A stretch of 64,000 bases of DNA from Enterococcus faecium (lineage in GTDB: Bacteria; Bacillota; Bacilli; Lactobacillales; Enterococcaceae). The stretch's first letter is position 1. Every line of letters begins with the position of its first letter. Position numbers and translations under genes: made by a program. A model generated the notes under the pieces. It ran no database searches. It saw nothing but the letters and a program-made list of their open reading frames with translations, and was not told where the DNA came from. The stretch is taken from contig NZ_CP118955.1 in assembly GCF_029023785.1 (NCBI RefSeq), positions 1,052,501 to 1,116,500 of the forward strand, read 5' to 3'. Positions 28,313-35,892 of this stretch are shown in pieces.

Positions 28313-28388
28313 TTCAATAAAACCAATTGTTATTTTTCTGAAAAACAAAGTTAATTATCAGAAAATTAAAAAAGTTTCATAAAAATGA

Positions 28389-28417
28389 TTGACAGTCGAT
28401 TTTTTTATGTCTATACT
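28389..28417 (+). promoter_or_regulatory. Strong promoter of the aromatic amino acid operon
   Basis: Consensus TTGACA at 28389-28394, a 17-bp spacer and TATACT at 28412-28417. The predicted transcript starts near 28424, about 30 bases before the leader peptide and 430 bases before aroF, leaving a long regulated leader. Confidence 0.88.
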
Positions 28418-28453
28418 AGGTACAATTCTTACATCAGTTTGGAGCGATTTTTT

Positions 28454-28510
28454 ATGAAATCTAGAAAACTTACAAAACTGAATACGTATTACTTTAGCTA
28501 TTTTAGATAG
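28454..28510 (+). CDS. Leader peptide of the aro operon attenuator, 18 aa
   Basis: The ORF encodes MKSRKLTKLNTYYFSYFR. Five of the last seven codons are Tyr or Phe (TAT TAC TTT AGC TAT TTT AGA). GGAG at 28441-28444 gives a proper ribosome binding site. The stop codon touches the first arm of a set of alternative RNA stems. This is the classic layout of a ribosome-mediated attenuator: scarcity of charged tRNA-Tyr or tRNA-Phe stalls the ribosome on these codons and switches the fold. I know of no database name for this peptide. Confidence 0.85.
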   Translation: MKSRKLTKLNTYYFSYFR

Positions 28511-28633
28511 GTTTGTATTCATGACTTCGTGGGTACAAACAAACCAGGTTTGTATCTATGATGGCTAAAGATTTTTAAACACGACTTACAGCCACGTAGA
28601 GAAATTCATCTATAGTGGCTATTTTATATTTTT
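28511..28633 (+). promoter_or_regulatory. Transcription attenuator (alternative stems plus terminator)
   Basis: Segments GTTTGTA (28511-28517), TACAAAC (28534-28540) and GTTTGTA (28548-28554) allow two exclusive hairpins. Further on, AGCCAC.TAGA (28590-28600) pairs with TCTA..GTGGCT (28609-28620) to form a terminator stem before a U-rich run (28621-28633). The segment ATCTATGATGGCT at 28554-28566 is nearly the same sequence as the terminator's 3' arm, so it can capture the 5' arm and act as antiterminator. The fold switching is inferred from complementarity. Confidence 0.78.
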
Positions 28634-28657
28634 GCAGCGCTTTTTAAGGCTCGTTGA

Positions 28658-28702
28658 AGATGTTCACTGTAGAGGCAATTTCCTACAGGGACATCTTTTT
28701 TT
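28658..28702 (+). terminator. Second intrinsic terminator in the aro leader
   Basis: AGATGT..CTGTAG (28658-28672) pairs with CTACAG..ACATCT (28683-28696), closing with a run of seven T. It is stronger than the first terminator. It lies between the attenuator and aroF, so basal operon expression must pass it. Confidence 0.85.
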
Positions 28703-28742
28703 GTTGATTATCTGGGTCATAAGTAGGAAAGAAGGAGCGAAA

Positions 28743-28796
28743 ATGAGAACAACAGGACACGGTCATTTAGTAGGAATTAATGTAAAACCACCTTGA
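28743..28796 (+). CDS. Second possible leader mini-ORF, 17 aa
   Basis: An ATG at 28743 follows GAAGGAGCGAAA, a much better ribosome binding site than that of aroF. The product is MRTTGHGHLVGINVKPP. It is not rich in aromatic residues, ends in Pro-Pro before the stop, and lies 57 bases upstream of aroF. It could be a translated leader affecting aroF, or chance. No homology recognised. Confidence 0.4.
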   Translation: MRTTGHGHLVGINVKPP

Positions 28797-28853
28797 AAAA
28801 GTAGAGAAAATCAGCCAAGATAGATAAGTAAACAAAAGAAAGCGGGAAAAACA

Positions 28854-29876
28854 ATGATAGTAATTATGAAAAAAGAAGCAACGGAAGAACAAATAAAAAA
28901 AGTCGTCGATCATATCGAAAAAGAAGGATTCAAAGTCTCAATCGATCAAGGAACAGAACGAGTAGTGATTGGACTAAAAGGTGATACGCGAAGTTTACAA
29001 GAAGGAGCATTTACACGCTATGAAGGAGTAGAAAATGCTGTGCGTATTTTAAACACATACAAATTGACTTCTCGAGAATTCCATCCTGGCAATACAGTCG
29101 TGGATGTAGACGGAGTAAAAATTGGTGACGGCAGTTTCGTGACGATGGCTGGTCCTTGTTCTATCGAAGGATTAGACCAAATCAGAGAATGTGCGCGAAT
29201 GGCCAAAGCCGGGGGCGCAAAAATTCTGCGAGGTGGTGCCTTCAAACCACGTACTTCTCCGTATGCTTTCCAAGGTTTAGAAGAAGAAGGATTGAAATAC
29301 ATCCGTCAAGCGGCTGATGAATTTGGAATGAAAGTGATTACTGAAGTGATGGATGAAGGGCATATCGACATGGTGGCTGAGTACAGCGATATCCTACAGA
29401 TTGGCGCACGTAATATGCAAAATTTTAAACTGCTATCTGCTGTCGGTAAAACAGGTAAACCTGTTGGATTGAAACGTGGAATTTCCGGTACGATCAATGA
29501 ATGGCTTAATGCTGCAGAATACATTGCAGTCGAAGACAAATCTCCTGTCATTTTTATCGAACGTGGGATTCGGACTTACGAAACAGCGACACGTAATACG
29601 TTTGATTTAAGTGCTGTCCCATTGATGAAAAAATTAACTCATTTCCCTGTGATTGTTGATCCAAGTCATGGTACAGGAATTTGGGAACTTGTACCACCAA
29701 TGGCTCGTGCGGGTGTGGCAAGCGGAGCAGATGGCATGATCGTAGAGATCCATCCTGATCCTGCAAATGCTTGGTCAGACGGTCCCCAATCGTTGAATGA
29801 AAAGACTTACTCACGCATGATGAAAGAAGTTGCGATCATGAAAGAAGCAATGGAAAAGATTCAGACACTCGATTAA
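28854..29876 (+). CDS. aroF: 3-deoxy-7-phosphoheptulonate (DAHP) synthase
   Basis: First enzyme of the shikimate pathway; it joins PEP and erythrose-4-phosphate. It is a type I-beta enzyme. Residues ~1-70 form the ferredoxin-like regulatory domain (IVIMKKEATEEQIKKVV), and the barrel carries MAGPCSIEG, RGGAFKPRTSPYAFQG, QIGARNMQNF, GLKRG and DPSHGTG. The regulatory domain makes feedback control by Tyr or Phe likely, by analogy with related enzymes. The start at 28854 has only a weak ribosome binding site (GCGGGAAAAA). It heads the aro operon behind the attenuator. Length 340. Confidence 0.95.
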   Translation: MIVIMKKEATEEQIKKVVDHIEKEGFKVSIDQGTERVVIGLKGDTRSLQEGAFTRYEGVENAVRILNTYKLTSREFHPGNTVVDVDGVKIGDGSFVTMAGPCSIEGLDQIRECARMAKAGGAKILRGGAFKPRTSPYAFQGLEEEGLKYIRQAADEFGMKVITEVMDEGHIDMVAEYSDILQIGARNMQNFKLLSAVGKTGKPVGLKRGISGTINEWLNAAEYIAVEDKSPVIFIERGIRTYETATRNTFDLSAVPLMKKLTHFPVIVDPSHGTGIWELVPPMARAGVASGADGMIVEIHPDPANAWSDGPQSLNEKTYSRMMKEVAIMKEAMEKIQTLD

Positions 29877-29908: not shown

Positions 29909-30973
29909 ATGCTTACTGTACATGTTGATAACCAAAAATACGATATTCATATTGAAAAAGGCGCACTAGAACAGGCTGGATCATGGCTTCAAACGATTTG
30001 GAGACCTCAAAAAGTAGCTGTGATCACTGATACAAACGTTGCTCCACTATATGCAGAAAAAATCATGTTCCAATTGAGACAAGCTAATTTTGAACCAGTC
30101 CTTTCAATCGTACCGGCGGGTGAGACCAGTAAATCTTTAGAACAAGCAGCTGAGTTATACGATTTTTTAGCAGATAATGATTTTACCCGCAGCGATGGGA
30201 TACTTGCACTTGGTGGAGGAATGGTGGGTGATCTAGCCGCATTCGTGGCCTCGACGTTCATGCGTGGGATCCATTTCGTTCAAATTCCGACTACGCTACT
30301 TGCACAAGTAGATTCTAGTATTGGCGGGAAGACAGCAGTCAATACAAACAAAGCGAAAAACCTTGTCGGAACATTTAGCCAGCCAGCTGGTGTATTGATT
30401 GATCCTGAGGTTCTAAAAACTTTGCCGGTACGTCGTTTACGAGAAGGAATCGCTGAAATCATCAAATCAGCAGCTATAGCAGATGCAACGCTTTGGAAAC
30501 AGCTGAACGAGCTGAAAGACGAAAAAAATCTTCTGGAACATGCTGTTCCAATCATTACTGCTACGTTGGAAATCAAACGAAAAGTAGTGGAAGAAGATGT
30601 CTTTGACCAAGGAAATCGACTTATTTTAAATTTTGGTCATACAATTGGCCATGCAATTGAAAATACAGCAGGATATGGGGTAGTCAGTCATGGAGAAGGA
30701 GTAGCTATTGGAATGGTAGCCATCACTTCTCATGCAGAAAAAATCGGCTTGTCTCCAACTGGATCGACAGCTGCTTTAGAAAGGATACTTCAAAAATTCC
30801 ATCTGCCGATTACGTATGATCTAAGTCATCCAGATGAATTATTCCACGCGATAACCCATGATAAGAAAGCAAGAGGAAGCCAATTGAATATCATCTTGCT
30901 AGAAAAGATTGGGCAAGCAAAAATCGTTCCTGTTCCCACAGAGACATTCAAAGATTACTTAGGAGGACTGTAA
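29909..30973 (+). CDS. aroB: 3-dehydroquinate synthase
   Basis: NAD- and metal-dependent enzyme that cyclises DAHP to 3-dehydroquinate, step 2 of the shikimate pathway. Motifs: [32 protein letters not shown] (NAD site), [21 protein letters not shown], and [11 protein letters not shown] with [11 protein letters not shown] as metal ligands. 354 residues, normal. It follows aroF by 32 bases with AGAAAGAAGTG before the ATG. It lies one base from aroC, so the two are coupled. Confidence 0.96.
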
Positions 30974-30974
30974 G

Positions 30975-32141
30975 ATGCGTTATATGACTGCGGGAGAATC
31001 CCATGGACCAGAATTAACAGCGATTATTGAAGGACTACCAGCAGGATTACCTCTGTCAGAAGAAGAAATCAATCACGAACTCGCTCGCAGACAAGCTGGT
31101 TACGGCAGAGGAGGAAGGATGAAGATCGAAAAAGATCGTGTTCGGATCACGTCTGGCATCCGTCACGGCAAAACAATTGGTTCACCTGTCACTTTAGTGG
31201 TAGAAAATAAAGATTGGAAAAATTGGACAACTGTCATGTCTGTAGCAGAAGTGCCTGAAAAAGACCAATCACTGCGGCGAGTTGCACGTCCGCGTCCAGG
31301 ACACGCGGATTTGGTAGGCGGTATGAAATACCATCATCGAGATCTTCGGAATGTGCTTGAACGGTCCTCTGCAAGAGAGACGACCATGCGTGTAGCAATC
31401 GGCGCAATTGCCAAGAAAATTCTGGAAGAACTTGACATCATCGTAGCAGGACACGTGATTTGTCTTGGTGGAATCCAAGCAGAAATACCTGGAAATATCT
31501 CGATTCAAGAAATCAAAGAAATTTCTGAAGCGTCAGAAGTACGAGTTGTTGATCCAGCAGTTGAGCAAAGAATAAAAGATTTGATCGATCAGACAAAGAA
31601 AAATGGAGATACGATCGGAGGAATTGTAGAAGTGCTCGTTGGAGGTGTTCCAGCTGGATTAGGAAGCTACGTACAATGGGACACGAAGCTAGATGCCAAA
31701 ATCGCACAAGCTGTGGTTAGTATCAATGCTTTTAAAGGCGTAGAATTTGGGGTCGGATTCACTTCTGGTTCATTACCAGGCTCAGAAGTGATGGATGAGA
31801 TCCTATGGGAAGAAGAAAGAGGCTATTTCCGACGTACCAATAATCTAGGCGGCTTCGAAGGCGGAATGACCAATGGCGAACCACTTGTCATTCGCGGGGT
31901 CATGAAACCCATCCCTACATTGTACAAGCCACTTCAAAGTGTTGATATCGATACAAAAGAACCTTACAAAGCAAGTGTAGAACGTTCGGATAGTACAGCA
32001 GTTCCTGCAGCTAGCGTCGTTGCGGAAAATGTTGTAGCCACTGTGGTAGCGACAGAGCTATTGTCAAAATTCCCAAGTGATTCGCTTGTTGAGTTGAAAG
32101 TTGCAGTGAAGGAGTACCGTGACTACTTGAAACATTATTAA
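30975..32141 (+). CDS. aroC: Chorismate synthase
   Basis: FMN-dependent enzyme that converts EPSP to chorismate, the last common step. Family signatures: [60 protein letters not shown] and [15 protein letters not shown]. At 388 residues it has the length of Gram-positive enzymes. AGGAGG at the end of aroB drives translation, with a single base between genes. The gene order (C before tyrA and aroA) matches streptococcal and enterococcal operons. Confidence 0.97.
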
Positions 32142-32157
32142 AAAGGGGGCAAATAAG

Positions 32158-33249
32158 ATGGCACAACATGTTTTTATCGTGGGGCTTGGACTGATTGGTG
32201 CTTCTATGGCACTTTGTATTCGTCAGACCAATCCAGAACTGATAGTAGTTGGTTGGGATAGTCAGTCAAAAACCCGTGAGCAAGCAATAGAACAGCAGAT
32301 CGTTGATTACGTTGCAAATGATTTTGAAACAGGTGCAGAACAAGCAGACGTTATCTTATTAGCCGTTCCCGTCCGTACAACCTTAGCTTATCTTGCTGTC
32401 CTTGAAAGAATCAACTTGTCTGATCACGTCATCATTACGGATGTCAGCAGTACGAAGCAGCAAGTCGTGACATCCGCTGAGCAGAAAAATCTTCGGTTTG
32501 TCGGTGGACATCCAATGGCTGGCTCTCATAAATCAGGTATACAGGCAGCAGATGCTAAACTATTTGAAAATGCCTATTACATCTTTACACCTTTGGAAAA
32601 GACGAAAAAAGATGTTGAAAAACTGCAAGAACTATTTTGCGGAACCAAAGCAAAATACGTAACTCTTACAGCAAGAGAACATGACCGTATAACAGGAATG
32701 CTAAGTCATTTTCCACATATTCTGGCAGCTGGCTTAGTCAATCAGGCAGAACAATTCAATCAAGAGTATCCGCGAGCCAAACAACTGGCAGCAGGAGGCT
32801 TTCGAGATATCACTAGGATCGCTTCCTCGGATCCTGTTATGTGGACAGATATTTTGTTGAGCAATAAGCAGATATTATTGGAACGATTGGCGGATTGGCA
32901 GCAAGAAATGGCACAAATAGCAGAATGGATCATGACTGAGAACCAATCGGAAATCTTTTCTTTTTTCAATCGGGCAAAAGAAAGTCGAGACCAGTTGCCT
33001 ATCCATAAGCAAGGCGCGATTCCTGCCTTCTTTGATTTATTTATCGATGTGCCAGATGAACCTGGCGTTATTGCAGAAGTAACTGGACTGATCGGAAAAG
33101 CGGGAGTTTCTTTGATTAATTTGAAGATCCAAGAGACCAGGGAAGATATTTTAGGAATACTGCAAATCAGTTTTAAAAACCAACAGGATTTGTTACAAGC
33201 AAAAAGAATCATTATGTCTAATACCAGTTATCATTGCTGGATCAAATAG
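32158..33249 (+). CDS. tyrA: Prephenate dehydrogenase
   Basis: NAD-dependent oxidative decarboxylase that converts prephenate to 4-hydroxyphenylpyruvate, the tyrosine precursor. Dinucleotide-binding motif VGLGLIGASMA is at the N-terminus; VGGHPMAGSHKSG and the catalytic-helix region DRITGMLSHFPH follow. A C-terminal ACT domain (~295-363: VPDEPGVIAEVTGLIGKAG) suggests feedback regulation by an aromatic amino acid. 363 residues. It starts after AAGGGGGC. Confidence 0.95.
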   Translation: MAQHVFIVGLGLIGASMALCIRQTNPELIVVGWDSQSKTREQAIEQQIVDYVANDFETGAEQADVILLAVPVRTTLAYLAVLERINLSDHVIITDVSSTKQQVVTSAEQKNLRFVGGHPMAGSHKSGIQAADAKLFENAYYIFTPLEKTKKDVEKLQELFCGTKAKYVTLTAREHDRITGMLSHFPHILAAGLVNQAEQFNQEYPRAKQLAAGGFRDITRIASSDPVMWTDILLSNKQILLERLADWQQEMAQIAEWIMTENQSEIFSFFNRAKESRDQLPIHKQGAIPAFFDLFIDVPDEPGVIAEVTGLIGKAGVSLINLKIQETREDILGILQISFKNQQDLLQAKRIIMSNTSYHCWIK

Positions 33250-33261
33250 GAGGCTGGATAA

Positions 33262-34557
33262 ATGCAATTATTACAACAAATACATGGATTAAGAGGAACT
33301 GTTAGGATACCAGCAGACAAATCAATTTCTCATCGCAGCATCATGTTTGGGGCAATTGCGGAAGGAACGACGACTATACAAAATTTTTTGCGCGCAGAAG
33401 ATTGTCTGAGTACTTTACATGCCTTCCAGCAATTAGGCGTTGAAATCGAAGAAGAGGAAGAGATGATCAAGATTCATGGTCGCGGTAGCCACTCATTTGT
33501 CCAACCAACCGAATCAATCGACATGGGAAACTCCGGTACGACCATACGTTTATTGATGGGTATTTTGGCTGGACAGCCTTTTATGACTACTCTGTTCGGG
33601 GATGCTTCGTTGTCTAAACGTCCAATGGGGCGAGTGATGGAACCTTTACGCGAGATGGGCGCTGACTTGCAAGGAAAAGAGAATGAGCAGTATCTACCAA
33701 TCACTGTGACAGGAACCAACTCTTTATCACCTATCCGATACAATATGCCTGTAGCCAGTGCGCAAGTCAAATCTGCTTTGCTGTTTGCGGCATTAAAAGC
33801 AGAAGGCACATCCGTAATCGTTGAAAAAGAACGTTCCCGTAACCATACGGAAGAAATGATTCGTCAATTTGGCGGAAGGATCTCAGTAGAAGGTAAAACA
33901 ATCACGGTAACAGGACCACAAAAATTAACTGGTCAACAGATAACTGTTCCAGGCGATATTTCATCGGCTGCTTTCTTTCTAGCAGCAGGGCTTCTTGTTC
34001 CGGAAAGCCAACTGTTATTAAAAAATGTCGGGGTCAATCCAACAAGAACCGGTATCTTAGATGTGCTGGAGGAGATGGGCGCAGCGATTACCCAGACGAA
34101 TCACAATGAACAGAACCAATCGGCTGATTTAAGTGTCAAGACGAGTCATTTGAAGAAAGCAACGATTGGTGGAGAAATCATTCCACGTCTGATTGATGAA
34201 TTGCCCATTCTAGCTTTAGTGGCTACTCAAGCAGAAGGAATCACGATCATCAAAGACGCAGAAGAATTAAAAGTAAAAGAAACCAACAGAATTGATGCGG
34301 TGGCAGAAGAATTACAGAAAATGGGAGCAAAGATAAAAGCGACAGCAGACGGTCTGATCATCCATGGGCCGACACCTCTGCATGGCGCAAAAGTGTCCAG
34401 CAGAGGCGATCATCGAATCGGTATGATGCTGCAAGTAGCTGCTTTGATAGCTGATGGACCTTGCGAACTAGAAGGAGCTGAAGCTGTTTCAATCTCTTAT
34501 CCGGCATTTTTTGACGATTTAGCAGAACTTGTGTCAGGAGGAGAAGCTCATGGCTAG
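33262..34557 (+). CDS. aroA: 3-phosphoshikimate 1-carboxyvinyltransferase (EPSP synthase)
   Basis: It joins shikimate-3-phosphate and PEP. Motifs: [74 protein letters not shown] and [14 protein letters not shown] with [11 protein letters not shown] near the end. The 431-residue length is typical. It starts 12 bases after tyrA behind TAGGAGG. The end overlaps aroK by 8 bases; the aroK ribosome binding site AGGAGGAG lies inside this gene. Confidence 0.97.
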
Positions 34558-35059
34558 CATTTTGCTGATTGGTTTCATGGGCGCTGGAAAAACAACAATC
34601 GGTAAAGGGTTAGCTCAACGTTTACAAAAAGAGTATGTAGATTTAGATACAAAGATTGAGGAACATATCCAATTGTCGATTGCCGAATATTTTCACTATT
34701 ACGGTGAAAAAAGCTTTCGAAAAGTGGAGTCAGATATTTTAAGAAAGCTGTCAAATGAAGATAAAATTATCGCGACTGGTGGAGGGATTGTCCAAAGTGC
34801 AGAAAATCGGCGTTTTTTAAAAACACAGCCGATTGTTCTTTACTTAGAGGCAGAAGCGGACTGTCTAGTTGATCGTATCCAACAAGATGAAACGTCTATT
34901 CGACCTTTAGCTCTTGGAAAAACAAGAGAAGAAATAAAAGCATTATTGGCACAACGACTTTCTTGGTATGAAGAAAGTGCGACACATCGAATCAACACGA
35001 CCAATCAAACACCAGAAAAGATCATCGATACCATTATAGAAAGGATCAAAAGCATATGA
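34550..35059 (+). CDS. aroK: Shikimate kinase
   Basis: A 169-residue P-loop kinase that makes shikimate-3-phosphate. Walker A is [12 protein letters not shown], the shikimate-binding region is [11 protein letters not shown] and FRKVESDIL, followed by TGGGIVQ and the lid RPLAL. It starts at ATG 34550 after AGGAGGAG, inside the end of aroA; longer in-frame starts lie before that ribosome binding site. It overlaps pheA by 4 bases (ATGA). Confidence 0.95.
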
Positions 35060-35892
35060 ACGTCAGCTATCTAGGGCCAGAAAGTTCATTCACTTATCAG
35101 GCGGCTTGTCAGCTATTTCCTACAGAACAATTGACTGCGTATGCTTCCATCCCTGCTTGTTTGCGCGCTTTGTTTCGCAAACAAGTCGATCTGGCTGTCG
35201 TTCCTGTAGAGAATTCATTGGAAGGATCTGTTCATCACACAATCGATCTTCTTTCCAAACATCCAGAAGTCGAAGTTAAAAGTGAAATCGTTCTTCCTAT
35301 CAAGCAGCAGCTTTTAGGCAATCCAGCAACAAAGATTACAAAAATCCTTTCACATCCACAAGCACTAGCACAATCACAACAGTTTTTAGAAACGCATTAT
35401 CCTAATGTTCCTTTAGTAGCAACAGAATCAACAACTGCTGCAGCAATGTATGTAGCAGAACATCCGAAAGAAGACGCAGCAGCGATTGCTTCATTAGAAA
35501 CAGCACAGCATGTTGGATTGGAGATCTTAGCTGAGAATATCCAAGATAATGAGTTGAATCAGACACGTTTTTGGATCATAGGTGATCGAAAGATGACCAG
35601 CCAGCAGCCAGCTCCAGTAAAAATGAGTGTCATCTTGACACTACCTGCTAATCGGCCAGGGATGCTTCATAAAATGCTGGCAGCTTTCGGATGGCGGGAG
35701 ATCAACTTAAGTAAGATTGAATCCCGACCATTGAAAACCAGTTTGGGAGAATATTTTTTCGTGATCGATTTGTTGTTGGACCGCCCAATGACATTAGTAG
35801 AGAATGCGCTCCAAGAAATCAAGATGCTCGGAGGAGAAAGTCAAATATTGGGCTGTTATCCAGTGCTGACAGTAGAAGAGACGCGTAGATGA
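35056..35892 (+). CDS. pheA: Prephenate dehydratase
   Basis: It converts prephenate to phenylpyruvate, the phenylalanine precursor. The catalytic domain carries YLGPESSFTYQAA, VPVENSLEGSVHHTIDLL and the NQTRFWIIG motif with the essential Thr. The C-terminal ACT domain (~195-270) has the IESRPLK motif of Phe-binding allosteric sites, so product inhibition is expected. 278 residues, no fused chorismate mutase. It overlaps aroK by 4 bases and is the last gene of the operon. Confidence 0.96.
   Translation: MNVSYLGPESSFTYQAACQLFPTEQLTAYASIPACLRALFRKQVDLAVVPVENSLEGSVHHTIDLLSKHPEVEVKSEIVLPIKQQLLGNPATKITKILSHPQALAQSQQFLETHYPNVPLVATESTTAAAMYVAEHPKEDAAAIASLETAQHVGLEILAENIQDNELNQTRFWIIGDRKMTSQQPAPVKMSVILTLPANRPGMLHKMLAAFGWREINLSKIESRPLKTSLGEYFFVIDLLLDRPMTLVENALQEIKMLGGESQILGCYPVLTVEETRR

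Follow-up and report, generated by a model that had tools for sequence, protein, structure and literature searches.

The window, by which we mean the whole analysed stretch of 64,000 nucleotides (G000:C1:1052501-1116500), carries a promoter, an 18-codon open reading frame (ORF) with a Shine-Dalgarno (SD) sequence and a 190-nt stretch of hairpins between a beta-galactosidase-like gene, named by eye, and aroF. All leader and operon features given below are on the + strand. The promoter, TTGACA-17-TATACT (28389..28417), agrees with the consensus at 11 of 12 positions, and is thus as near to it as a previous sequence-only reading of this DNA had claimed; a promoter/terminator scan found five promoter-like sites in the region, compared with 3.3 in shuffled sequence. 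The SD sequence GGAG (28441..28444) stands 9 nt before the ATG of the leader ORF, and 'tttggagcgat' is repeated ahead of the ORF in many relatives. The 18-codon Tyr/Phe ORF of that reading is present at 28454..28510; it would encode MKSRKLTKLNTYYFSYFR followed by a stop codon, a putative leader peptide ending in LNTYYFSYFR. Its codons 12-17, TAT TAC TTT AGC TAT TTT (Tyr Tyr Phe Ser Tyr Phe, 28487..28504), include five for Tyr or Phe, ahead of an operon that contains both tyrA and pheA.

The first gene of the presumably controlled operon is aroF (28854..29876), a DAHP synthase gene that exceeds the cut-offs of both NF006421 and TIGR01361 and is 99% identical to the aroF of Enterococcus lactis CCM 8412, so that the DNA probably comes from E. 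faecium or a near relative of it. It is followed by aroB, aroC, tyrA, aroA, an aroK-like gene and pheA (29909..35892), the aroK-like gene being named by its place and size, without an NCBIfam match at 1e-60. Between leader and operon, a small ORF with a good SD sequence (MRTTGHGHLVGINVKPP and a stop codon, 28743-28796) resembles a decayed aroE start (compare MEITGHTHLAGLYAKPA in L018); an intact aroE lies at about 1.33 Mb of G000:C1, behind a Trp leader and trpXYZ-like genes.

Alternative pairings in the leader RNA

The 217-nt leader folds with a free energy of -52.9 kcal/mol, compared with -36.6 ± 3.9 kcal/mol in 200 shuffles (z = -4.2; these shuffles, like the permutations below, ignore relatedness). 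In the minimum free energy fold, CUUUAGCUAUU-UUAGAUA (segment A, 28492..28509) pairs with segment B (28553..28570), so that the leader codons themselves are the sequestering segment, and a hairpin a:a' (28511..28540) is nested inside, immediately 3' of the stop codon, where it may possibly act as a pause hairpin. The a' arm (28534-28540) can alternatively pair with a third GTTTGTA repeat (28548-28554; whole stem 28534..28554), which abuts B. Segment B is the 5' arm of the antiterminator, a partner of either A or C. Segment C (28590..28602) is the 3' partner of B, with which it pairs at 28590-28600, and also the 5' arm of terminator 1, a hairpin with a U-rich tail (28590..28634, -13.1 kcal/mol) whose 3' arm is segment D (28608..28620). 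As the sequence-only reading had noticed, this 3' arm is nearly duplicated upstream: positions 28554-28566 (ATCTATGATGGCT), inside B, and 28608-28620 (ATCTATAGTGGCT) are identical at 11 of 13 bases. Segment D is in turn an alternative partner of segment E, whose core (28664..28673) is complementary over 10 bases to D at 28609-28618 (-12.5 kcal/mol) and forms the 5' arm of a second hairpin, E:F. With its 7-T run to 28702, E:F is terminator 2 (28656..28702, -19.3 kcal/mol). The promoter/terminator scan, which is limited to short loops, found neither terminator. The leader therefore has six alternating segments, in which A:B, C:D and E:F are mutually exclusive with B:C and D:E. The sequestering role of the codons, the second terminator and the six-segment alternation were all absent from the sequence-only reading.

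We consider it highly likely that this leader is a ribosome-mediated transcription attenuator that senses the charging of both tRNA-Tyr and tRNA-Phe ahead of the aro operon. When Tyr and Phe are plentiful, a translating ribosome would clear the leader ORF, A:B, C:D (terminator 1) and E:F (terminator 2) would form, and transcription would end upstream of aroF. Under a shortage of Tyr or Phe, the ribosome would be expected to halt on Tyr-Tyr-Phe-Ser-Tyr-Phe and to cover A; B would then pair with C, D would be free for E, and with both terminators hindered the operon would be transcribed. The GTTTGTA repeats could distinguish two ribosome positions. A ribosome stalled at the control codons would let a:a' form and leave B free, while a ribosome on the stop codon would cover a, and a' would pair with the third repeat beside B. 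As the core of the switch, the repeats were considered and rejected; they are an accessory alternative, and the antiterminator itself is B:C.

Folding calculations with masked ribosome footprints agree with this scheme at some transcript lengths and not at others. In a transcript that ends after C (28607), the probability of B:C rises from 0.00 in free RNA to 0.94-0.98 with a ribosome stalled anywhere from Tyr12 to Tyr16. With E present (to 28682), free RNA forms C:D at 0.94 and D:E at 0.05, while a stalled ribosome brings both B:C and D:E to 0.98-1.00. The comparison of masked and unmasked RNA that the sequence-only reading had proposed thus yields the expected shift in these two partial transcripts, but none at equilibrium in transcripts to 28622-28637 or in the full-length RNA, where the terminators win with or without a stall; C:D outcompetes B:C at equilibrium once D has been transcribed. 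Consequently, the switch must be kinetic, and the model requires that pairs form in the order of their synthesis, as is assumed for the trp attenuator. With the ribosome at the stop codon, A is likewise masked, and B:C is at 0.50 before D is made; C:D takes over once D is out, and D:E still reaches 0.94 with E present. Release would therefore need to be quick, or the stem between a' and the third repeat would have to suffice. In the model this stem depends on the masking of A: its probability is 0.00 in free RNA and, at every length tried, 1.00 when a ribosome occupies the stop codon.

Conservation of both sets of pairings was measured in an alignment (A1) of 73 dereplicated leaders, of which 54 are aro-type and 19 stand ahead of transporter genes. 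The fraction of cells paired is 98.9% for A:B, 97.3% for a:a' (with five pairs changed on both sides), 85.0% for C:D, which is shorter in transporter leaders than in aro-type leaders, 94.4% for B:C and 96.9% for a' with the third repeat. The mutually exclusive GTTTGTA/TACAAAC/GTTTGTA stems of the sequence-only reading are the second and last of these, and both hold up well. Overall, 94.7% of terminating and 96.0% of antiterminating pairs are kept, against 30-51% for slid partners; across the single helices, a slide of 1-3 columns lowers pairing to 20-51%. Among the 73 leaders, A:B shows zero changes on both sides, and its support lies in the pairing compared with slid partners and in one-sided changes, without compensation.

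The hairpin finder had selected C:D and E:F as hairpins, so that only D:E and B:C give fair permutation tests. We used 70 of the 73 leaders for these, excluding L009 and L015, whose C:D was misplaced, and L079, in which no B was found; all three were retained in A1. With their own partners, D and E pair at a mean of -13.16 kcal/mol. Mixed partners average -10.40 kcal/mol, and a mean as low as the observed one did not occur in 2000 permutations. Segments D and E read CTATAGCG and CGCTATAG in L032, L089 and their relatives, and CCAAATGG and CCATTTGG in L167. For B:C, own partners have hardly any advantage over mixed ones, with 41 of 2000 permutations reaching a value as low, a weak signal because B is nearly invariant. 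At least six T in the 10 bases after C:D were counted in 40 of 51 aro-type leaders, whereas all 19 transporter leaders have 0-3 T there. A U-tailed E:F hairpin was found in 70 of 70 leaders; the finder accepted E:F only if at least six T were among the 10 bases that follow it, which makes this T count one by construction, unlike the count after C:D. Terminator 2 therefore looks like the general terminator.

Leader codons within and outside Enterococcaceae

Among 105 Enterococcaceae genomes, 102 carry aroF, at 103 places, and the leader lies upstream of it on the same strand at 94 of these. The sequence-only reading would have been undermined by relatives that lack the ORF or keep the stems without Tyr/Phe codons; instead, the first aromatic codon (codon -7) reads TAT in 74, TAC in 8, TTT in 6 and GAT in 1 of 89 distinct leaders, and is thus Tyr or Phe in 88, Tyr-to-Phe changes included, although it lies outside the A:B helix. 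By comparison, codon -8 takes seven codons, for N, T, K and R, in the same 89 leaders. The distance from leader to aroF is 285-363 nt at 11 loci, 1063-1322 nt at 81, 495 nt at one and 1857 nt at one; the longer distances fit an aroE in between, and an aroE start was seen in L018, L038 and L039. A degenerate 24-mer matched 64 of 105 genomes without mismatch, and read backwards it matched none. One match of this pattern (L168, in G069:C4) is a chance match, with no start codon and no such frame.

The leader was not found at nine of the 103 aro loci, namely L003-L008, L123, L124 and L059, the last on a contig that ends too soon. In one same-genus genome without a Tyr/Phe aro leader, a Trp leader, three transporter genes, an aroE-like ORF and aroF follow in succession (L228, G010:C4:151700-157600), and control of aro may there have passed to the Trp leader; of the six same-genus loci that lack a Tyr/Phe leader, this is the one that was looked at. 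At L015 (G008), the aro leader has no in-frame start codon, reads DYLSYFR and keeps its hairpins in part, and is perhaps a decaying copy. The two codons -10 and -9 (CTG AAT, Leu-Asn) are conserved as CTG in 84 and AAT in 89 of the 89 leaders, outside A:B, in a way that the attenuation model leaves unaccounted for, and QLN is also found ahead of Trp codons (L221).

Outside this family, a model built on the leaders (R1) matched 251 of 395 Lactobacillales genomes; of 299 genomes drawn across the class it matched 27, five of them outside the order. As R1 includes the codon region, its Tyr/Phe hits are biased. To avoid this bias we built R2 solely from RNA 3' of the stop codon (A2/R2, 49 of the 73 leaders), although B is partly complementary to the codons. 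On 56 genomes picked by number and not by result, R2 matched 27. All 30 of its loci outside Enterococcaceae, several of which are near-copies, have an ORF with at least four Tyr/Phe among its last 10 residues that ends no more than 15 nt from the start of the match, compared with 149 of 16852 control anchors (0.9%). These loci came from 40 matches; among the other 10, the match in G111:C3 overlaps a trpB-motif match and that at G111:C13:18908 overlaps another match on the opposite strand. The R1 loci (30 of 43 and 30 of 39 matches) came from 39 genomes with R1 matches, picked to span families.

A leader ORF covers the codons at all 77 loci examined outside Enterococcaceae, with Tyr/Phe codons in 70 and Ile/Leu/Val codons in seven (L311, L314, L315, L307, L308, L318 and L322), the latter on the same RNA frame with runs such as LLISVIR, IIISIIIR, IISIIIR, IIISIIR and IITSIIR. 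Rfam at gathering score gave nothing in the four Ile/Leu/Val loci scanned (L307, L311, L315 and L322). Downstream genes were assigned by phmmer against profiled references, of which the PheA reference was itself below its NCBIfam cut-off (188 against 219). Branched-chain genes (ilvB, ilvA or livJ-type) follow seven of the seven Ile/Leu/Val leaders and none of the 70 Tyr/Phe leaders. Behind the former are two acetolactate synthases, one threonine ammonia-lyase and four LivJ-type binding proteins, which are above the cut-off of PF13458 where it was run and below that of NF011933. The 70 Tyr/Phe leaders precede TrpX-family genes (50), aroE, aroF, aroC or pheA (12), aminotransferases (2), PF00497 binding proteins (3), a CitMHS transporter (1), a D-2-hydroxyacid dehydrogenase (1) and one unassigned gene; six of the 70 stand before genes without a plain aromatic link. 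The leader of that dehydrogenase (L303) reads VFFNSNFR, with Phe or Asn codons as possible control codons. The leader of the window would appear to be one of a wider family that uses the same RNA frame with Tyr/Phe, Trp (see below) or Ile/Leu/Val codons to match the downstream genes.

The same comparisons bear on a different use of the leader ORF, in which free Tyr or Phe would cause the nascent peptide itself to arrest the ribosome, with codon supply being secondary. The TnaC nascent peptide arrests the ribosome in this manner in response to Trp. In favour of such an arrest, the C-terminus of the leader peptide is highly conserved: LN-x-YYFSYFR is found in most of the 89 leaders, and FSYFR endings extend to other families. 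However, the nucleotide conservation can in large part be ascribed to A:B pairing, and the residues vary while their codon class is kept (YYF, FYF, YFF, FFF, YYYFRFF, FFGFF). The final R is lost in some leaders (FYFSYF and stop) or followed by three added codons, and the whole motif is swapped to WQNWRR or IIISIIIR according to the gene that follows. We regard peptide arrest as very improbable, and ribosome stalling at codons whose tRNA is uncharged as the better account.

Rfam families sRNA_2410 and trpB motif

Two Rfam families overlap this leader, each with its own proposed function. RF02863 (sRNA_2410) matches the window at 28494-28668 with 73.5 bits, above its cut-off of 61, and has matches in 15 of 15 genomes of the genus; its model is homologous to the aro leader and begins inside the leader ORF. 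The genome of the window contains two copies, the one at aro and another with 212 bits (G000:C1:2481110-2481304). The latter has the 195-nt length stated for sRNA_2410, reads QLNNFYFSYFR and precedes a TrpX-family substrate-binding protein (PF04392; NF041285 340 bits, cut-off 390). On sequence grounds, what is filed as a small RNA is a paralog of the aro leader ahead of a TrpX-family transporter. Other RF02863-type copies lie ahead of similar transporters, of aroC (L174) and of AroB-like fragments (L157, L162 and L165). These fragments, identified by sequence and in L165 also by profile, belong to proteins of 246-250 aa, shorter than true AroB; that of L165, the one profiled, matches approximately the first half of the AroB model.

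A trans-acting small RNA would fit the match to RF02863 and the listing of sRNA_2410 as a 195-nt sRNA with two transcripts on Northern blots in E. faecium (PMC5593968, available portions), a paper whose text, when searched, did not yield the word attenuation. Yet the RF02863 match spans the switch and its terminators, and two 3' ends would yield two transcripts. In addition, 69 of the 77 members examined outside Enterococcaceae stand upstream of, and in line with, genes of aromatic, TrpX-family or branched-chain type, a genomic position that favours a cis role. The L. monocytogenes sRNA candidate Rli60, initially not distinguished from an sRNA, likewise proved to be an attenuator, as far as the available text of that study goes (PMC5864092). 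A trans-acting role is therefore highly implausible, and a cis-acting attenuator is preferred.

The second family, the trpB motif (RF04312), has matches at E 0.001 in 160 of 295 Lactobacillales genomes, of which 52 exceed the cut-off. Its authors call it a strong riboswitch candidate and leave classic attenuation open (PMC11109978, in the text available). In the window, RF04312 reaches 35.2 bits at 28526-28630 (E 0.003), below its cut-off of 59, and the aro leader would work alike without being a member: the two share a B-like right arm, an antiterminator, a terminator and a preceding ORF, and differ in the Trp codons. RF04312 matches begin after this ORF. Among the top 30 loci of the RF04312 search, a Trp ORF lies 8-40 nt upstream of the motif in all 30, typically with WQNWRR or WQSWRR near its end, and 27 have two or more Trp codons; random anchors in the same loci gave a Trp ORF in 7.8% and two Trp codons in 1.2%. 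A Trp ORF was also present in every one of 19 additional regions, which comprise some of these loci and some weaker matches. The genes behind the 30 loci are TrpX-family in 24 and TrpB in three, with none assigned in three, and in the window's own genome MNLSKRISAENKKNWRSWRR precedes TrpX (473 bits, above the cut-off), a permease, an ATPase (named by eye) and AroE. The Trp ORF can pair with B at a median of -15.7 kcal/mol. B was not found in two of the 30 Trp leaders (L196 and L211); in 22 of the 28 scored, no more than 10 of 200 shuffles equalled the pairing, and pairing was poor in L212, L213 and L225.

That the RNA is a riboswitch or bound by a protein and that translation plays no part, the view put forward for the trpB motif, would agree with this sub-cut-off match, but we find it hardly tenable given a Trp ORF at 30 of 30 trpB-motif loci and a Tyr/Phe ORF at 30 of 30 R2 loci, and an Rfam covariance search of the window found no T-box that reached the gathering score, and none at E up to 1 within 28380-28860.

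Relation to known attenuators and transporter specificity

In enteric bacteria, the his and phe/pheA leader attenuators combine mutually exclusive hairpins and an intrinsic terminator with a short ORF in which codons for the regulated amino acid abound. The aro leader has the alternation of A:B, C:D and E:F with B:C and D:E in common with the his leader. It differs from the his and phe/pheA leaders in that its codons themselves form segment A, in that most aro leaders have two tandem U-tailed hairpins, and in that its frame is common to several operons, with the codons swapped. The sequence-only reading had proposed attenuation of the trp/phe-leader type, and the conservation of both terminating and antiterminating pairings, together with codon swaps that track the downstream gene, bears this out; the same reading took the device for an exception in low-GC Gram-positives, where it is instead common in Lactobacillales.

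Regulation of aromatic amino acid genes in low-GC Gram-positives was reportedly covered by Panina et al. in 2003. The open literature, mostly in the form of titles and abstracts and with subscription papers outside the search, contained no description that we recognised of the aro leader or of a Trp ORF before the trpB motif. In the available parts of the reports, ribosome-mediated attenuation likewise controls amino acid synthesis in Firmicutes at Listeria Rli60 and the S. aureus ilv leaders, which, unlike the aro leader, respond to branched-chain amino acids and were compared with it here by mechanism (PMC5864092, PMC5794164). Leader peptides with His codons in Firmicutes are also predicted attenuators, some replacing T-boxes, but as far as these sources extend they belong to other orders and are lineage-specific, unlike the aro leader (PMC2965389, PMC9413887). 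The Trp T-box of S. suis trpXYZ controls the same transporter family and also senses tRNA charging, although the available text has the tRNA binding the RNA directly, with no ORF, unlike the leader-peptide family (PMC9382623). The mechanism is thus already known. What appears to be new is the family, with its breadth and the swapping of its codons; these leaders look like a modular group of leader-peptide attenuators in Lactobacillales that had not been described.

We hold with good confidence that the Lactobacillales have in common a single modular attenuator that is read by the ribosome, as a leader-peptide analogue of the T-box. Its frame would be conserved while its Tyr/Phe, Trp or Ile/Leu/Val codons fit aro, trp and ilv/liv genes; it would include both an Rfam sRNA and a riboswitch candidate, and its codons would predict the specificity of TrpX-family proteins, in two clades. 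If so, these two Rfam families would be reassigned to ribosome-mediated attenuation, and this mechanism would be widespread in lactic acid bacteria, where T-boxes are usually expected. The frame stays while the codons change, and therefore offers natural test pairs for whether codon identity sets specificity. The substrate of poorly annotated amino acid transporters could also be guessed from a few codons.

The TrpX-family proteins themselves divide along the same line. In a tree of 88 proteins, a single branch with a support of 100 splits 27 Trp-led from 61 Tyr/Phe-led proteins; the tree was made by a quick method, from protein sets found by separate searches, excluding candidates without a family hit above 150 bits and containing two identical rows. 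Against the NCBIfam TrpX model (cut-off 390), one Trp-led protein scored 473, and five Tyr/Phe-led proteins fell below the cut-off at 274-340. The best solved structure was 6hni, which we take to be CD0873, for all four Tyr/Phe-led proteins tested, and 3lft for all three Trp-led proteins tested. The 3lft structure holds Trp, according to PMC9382623.
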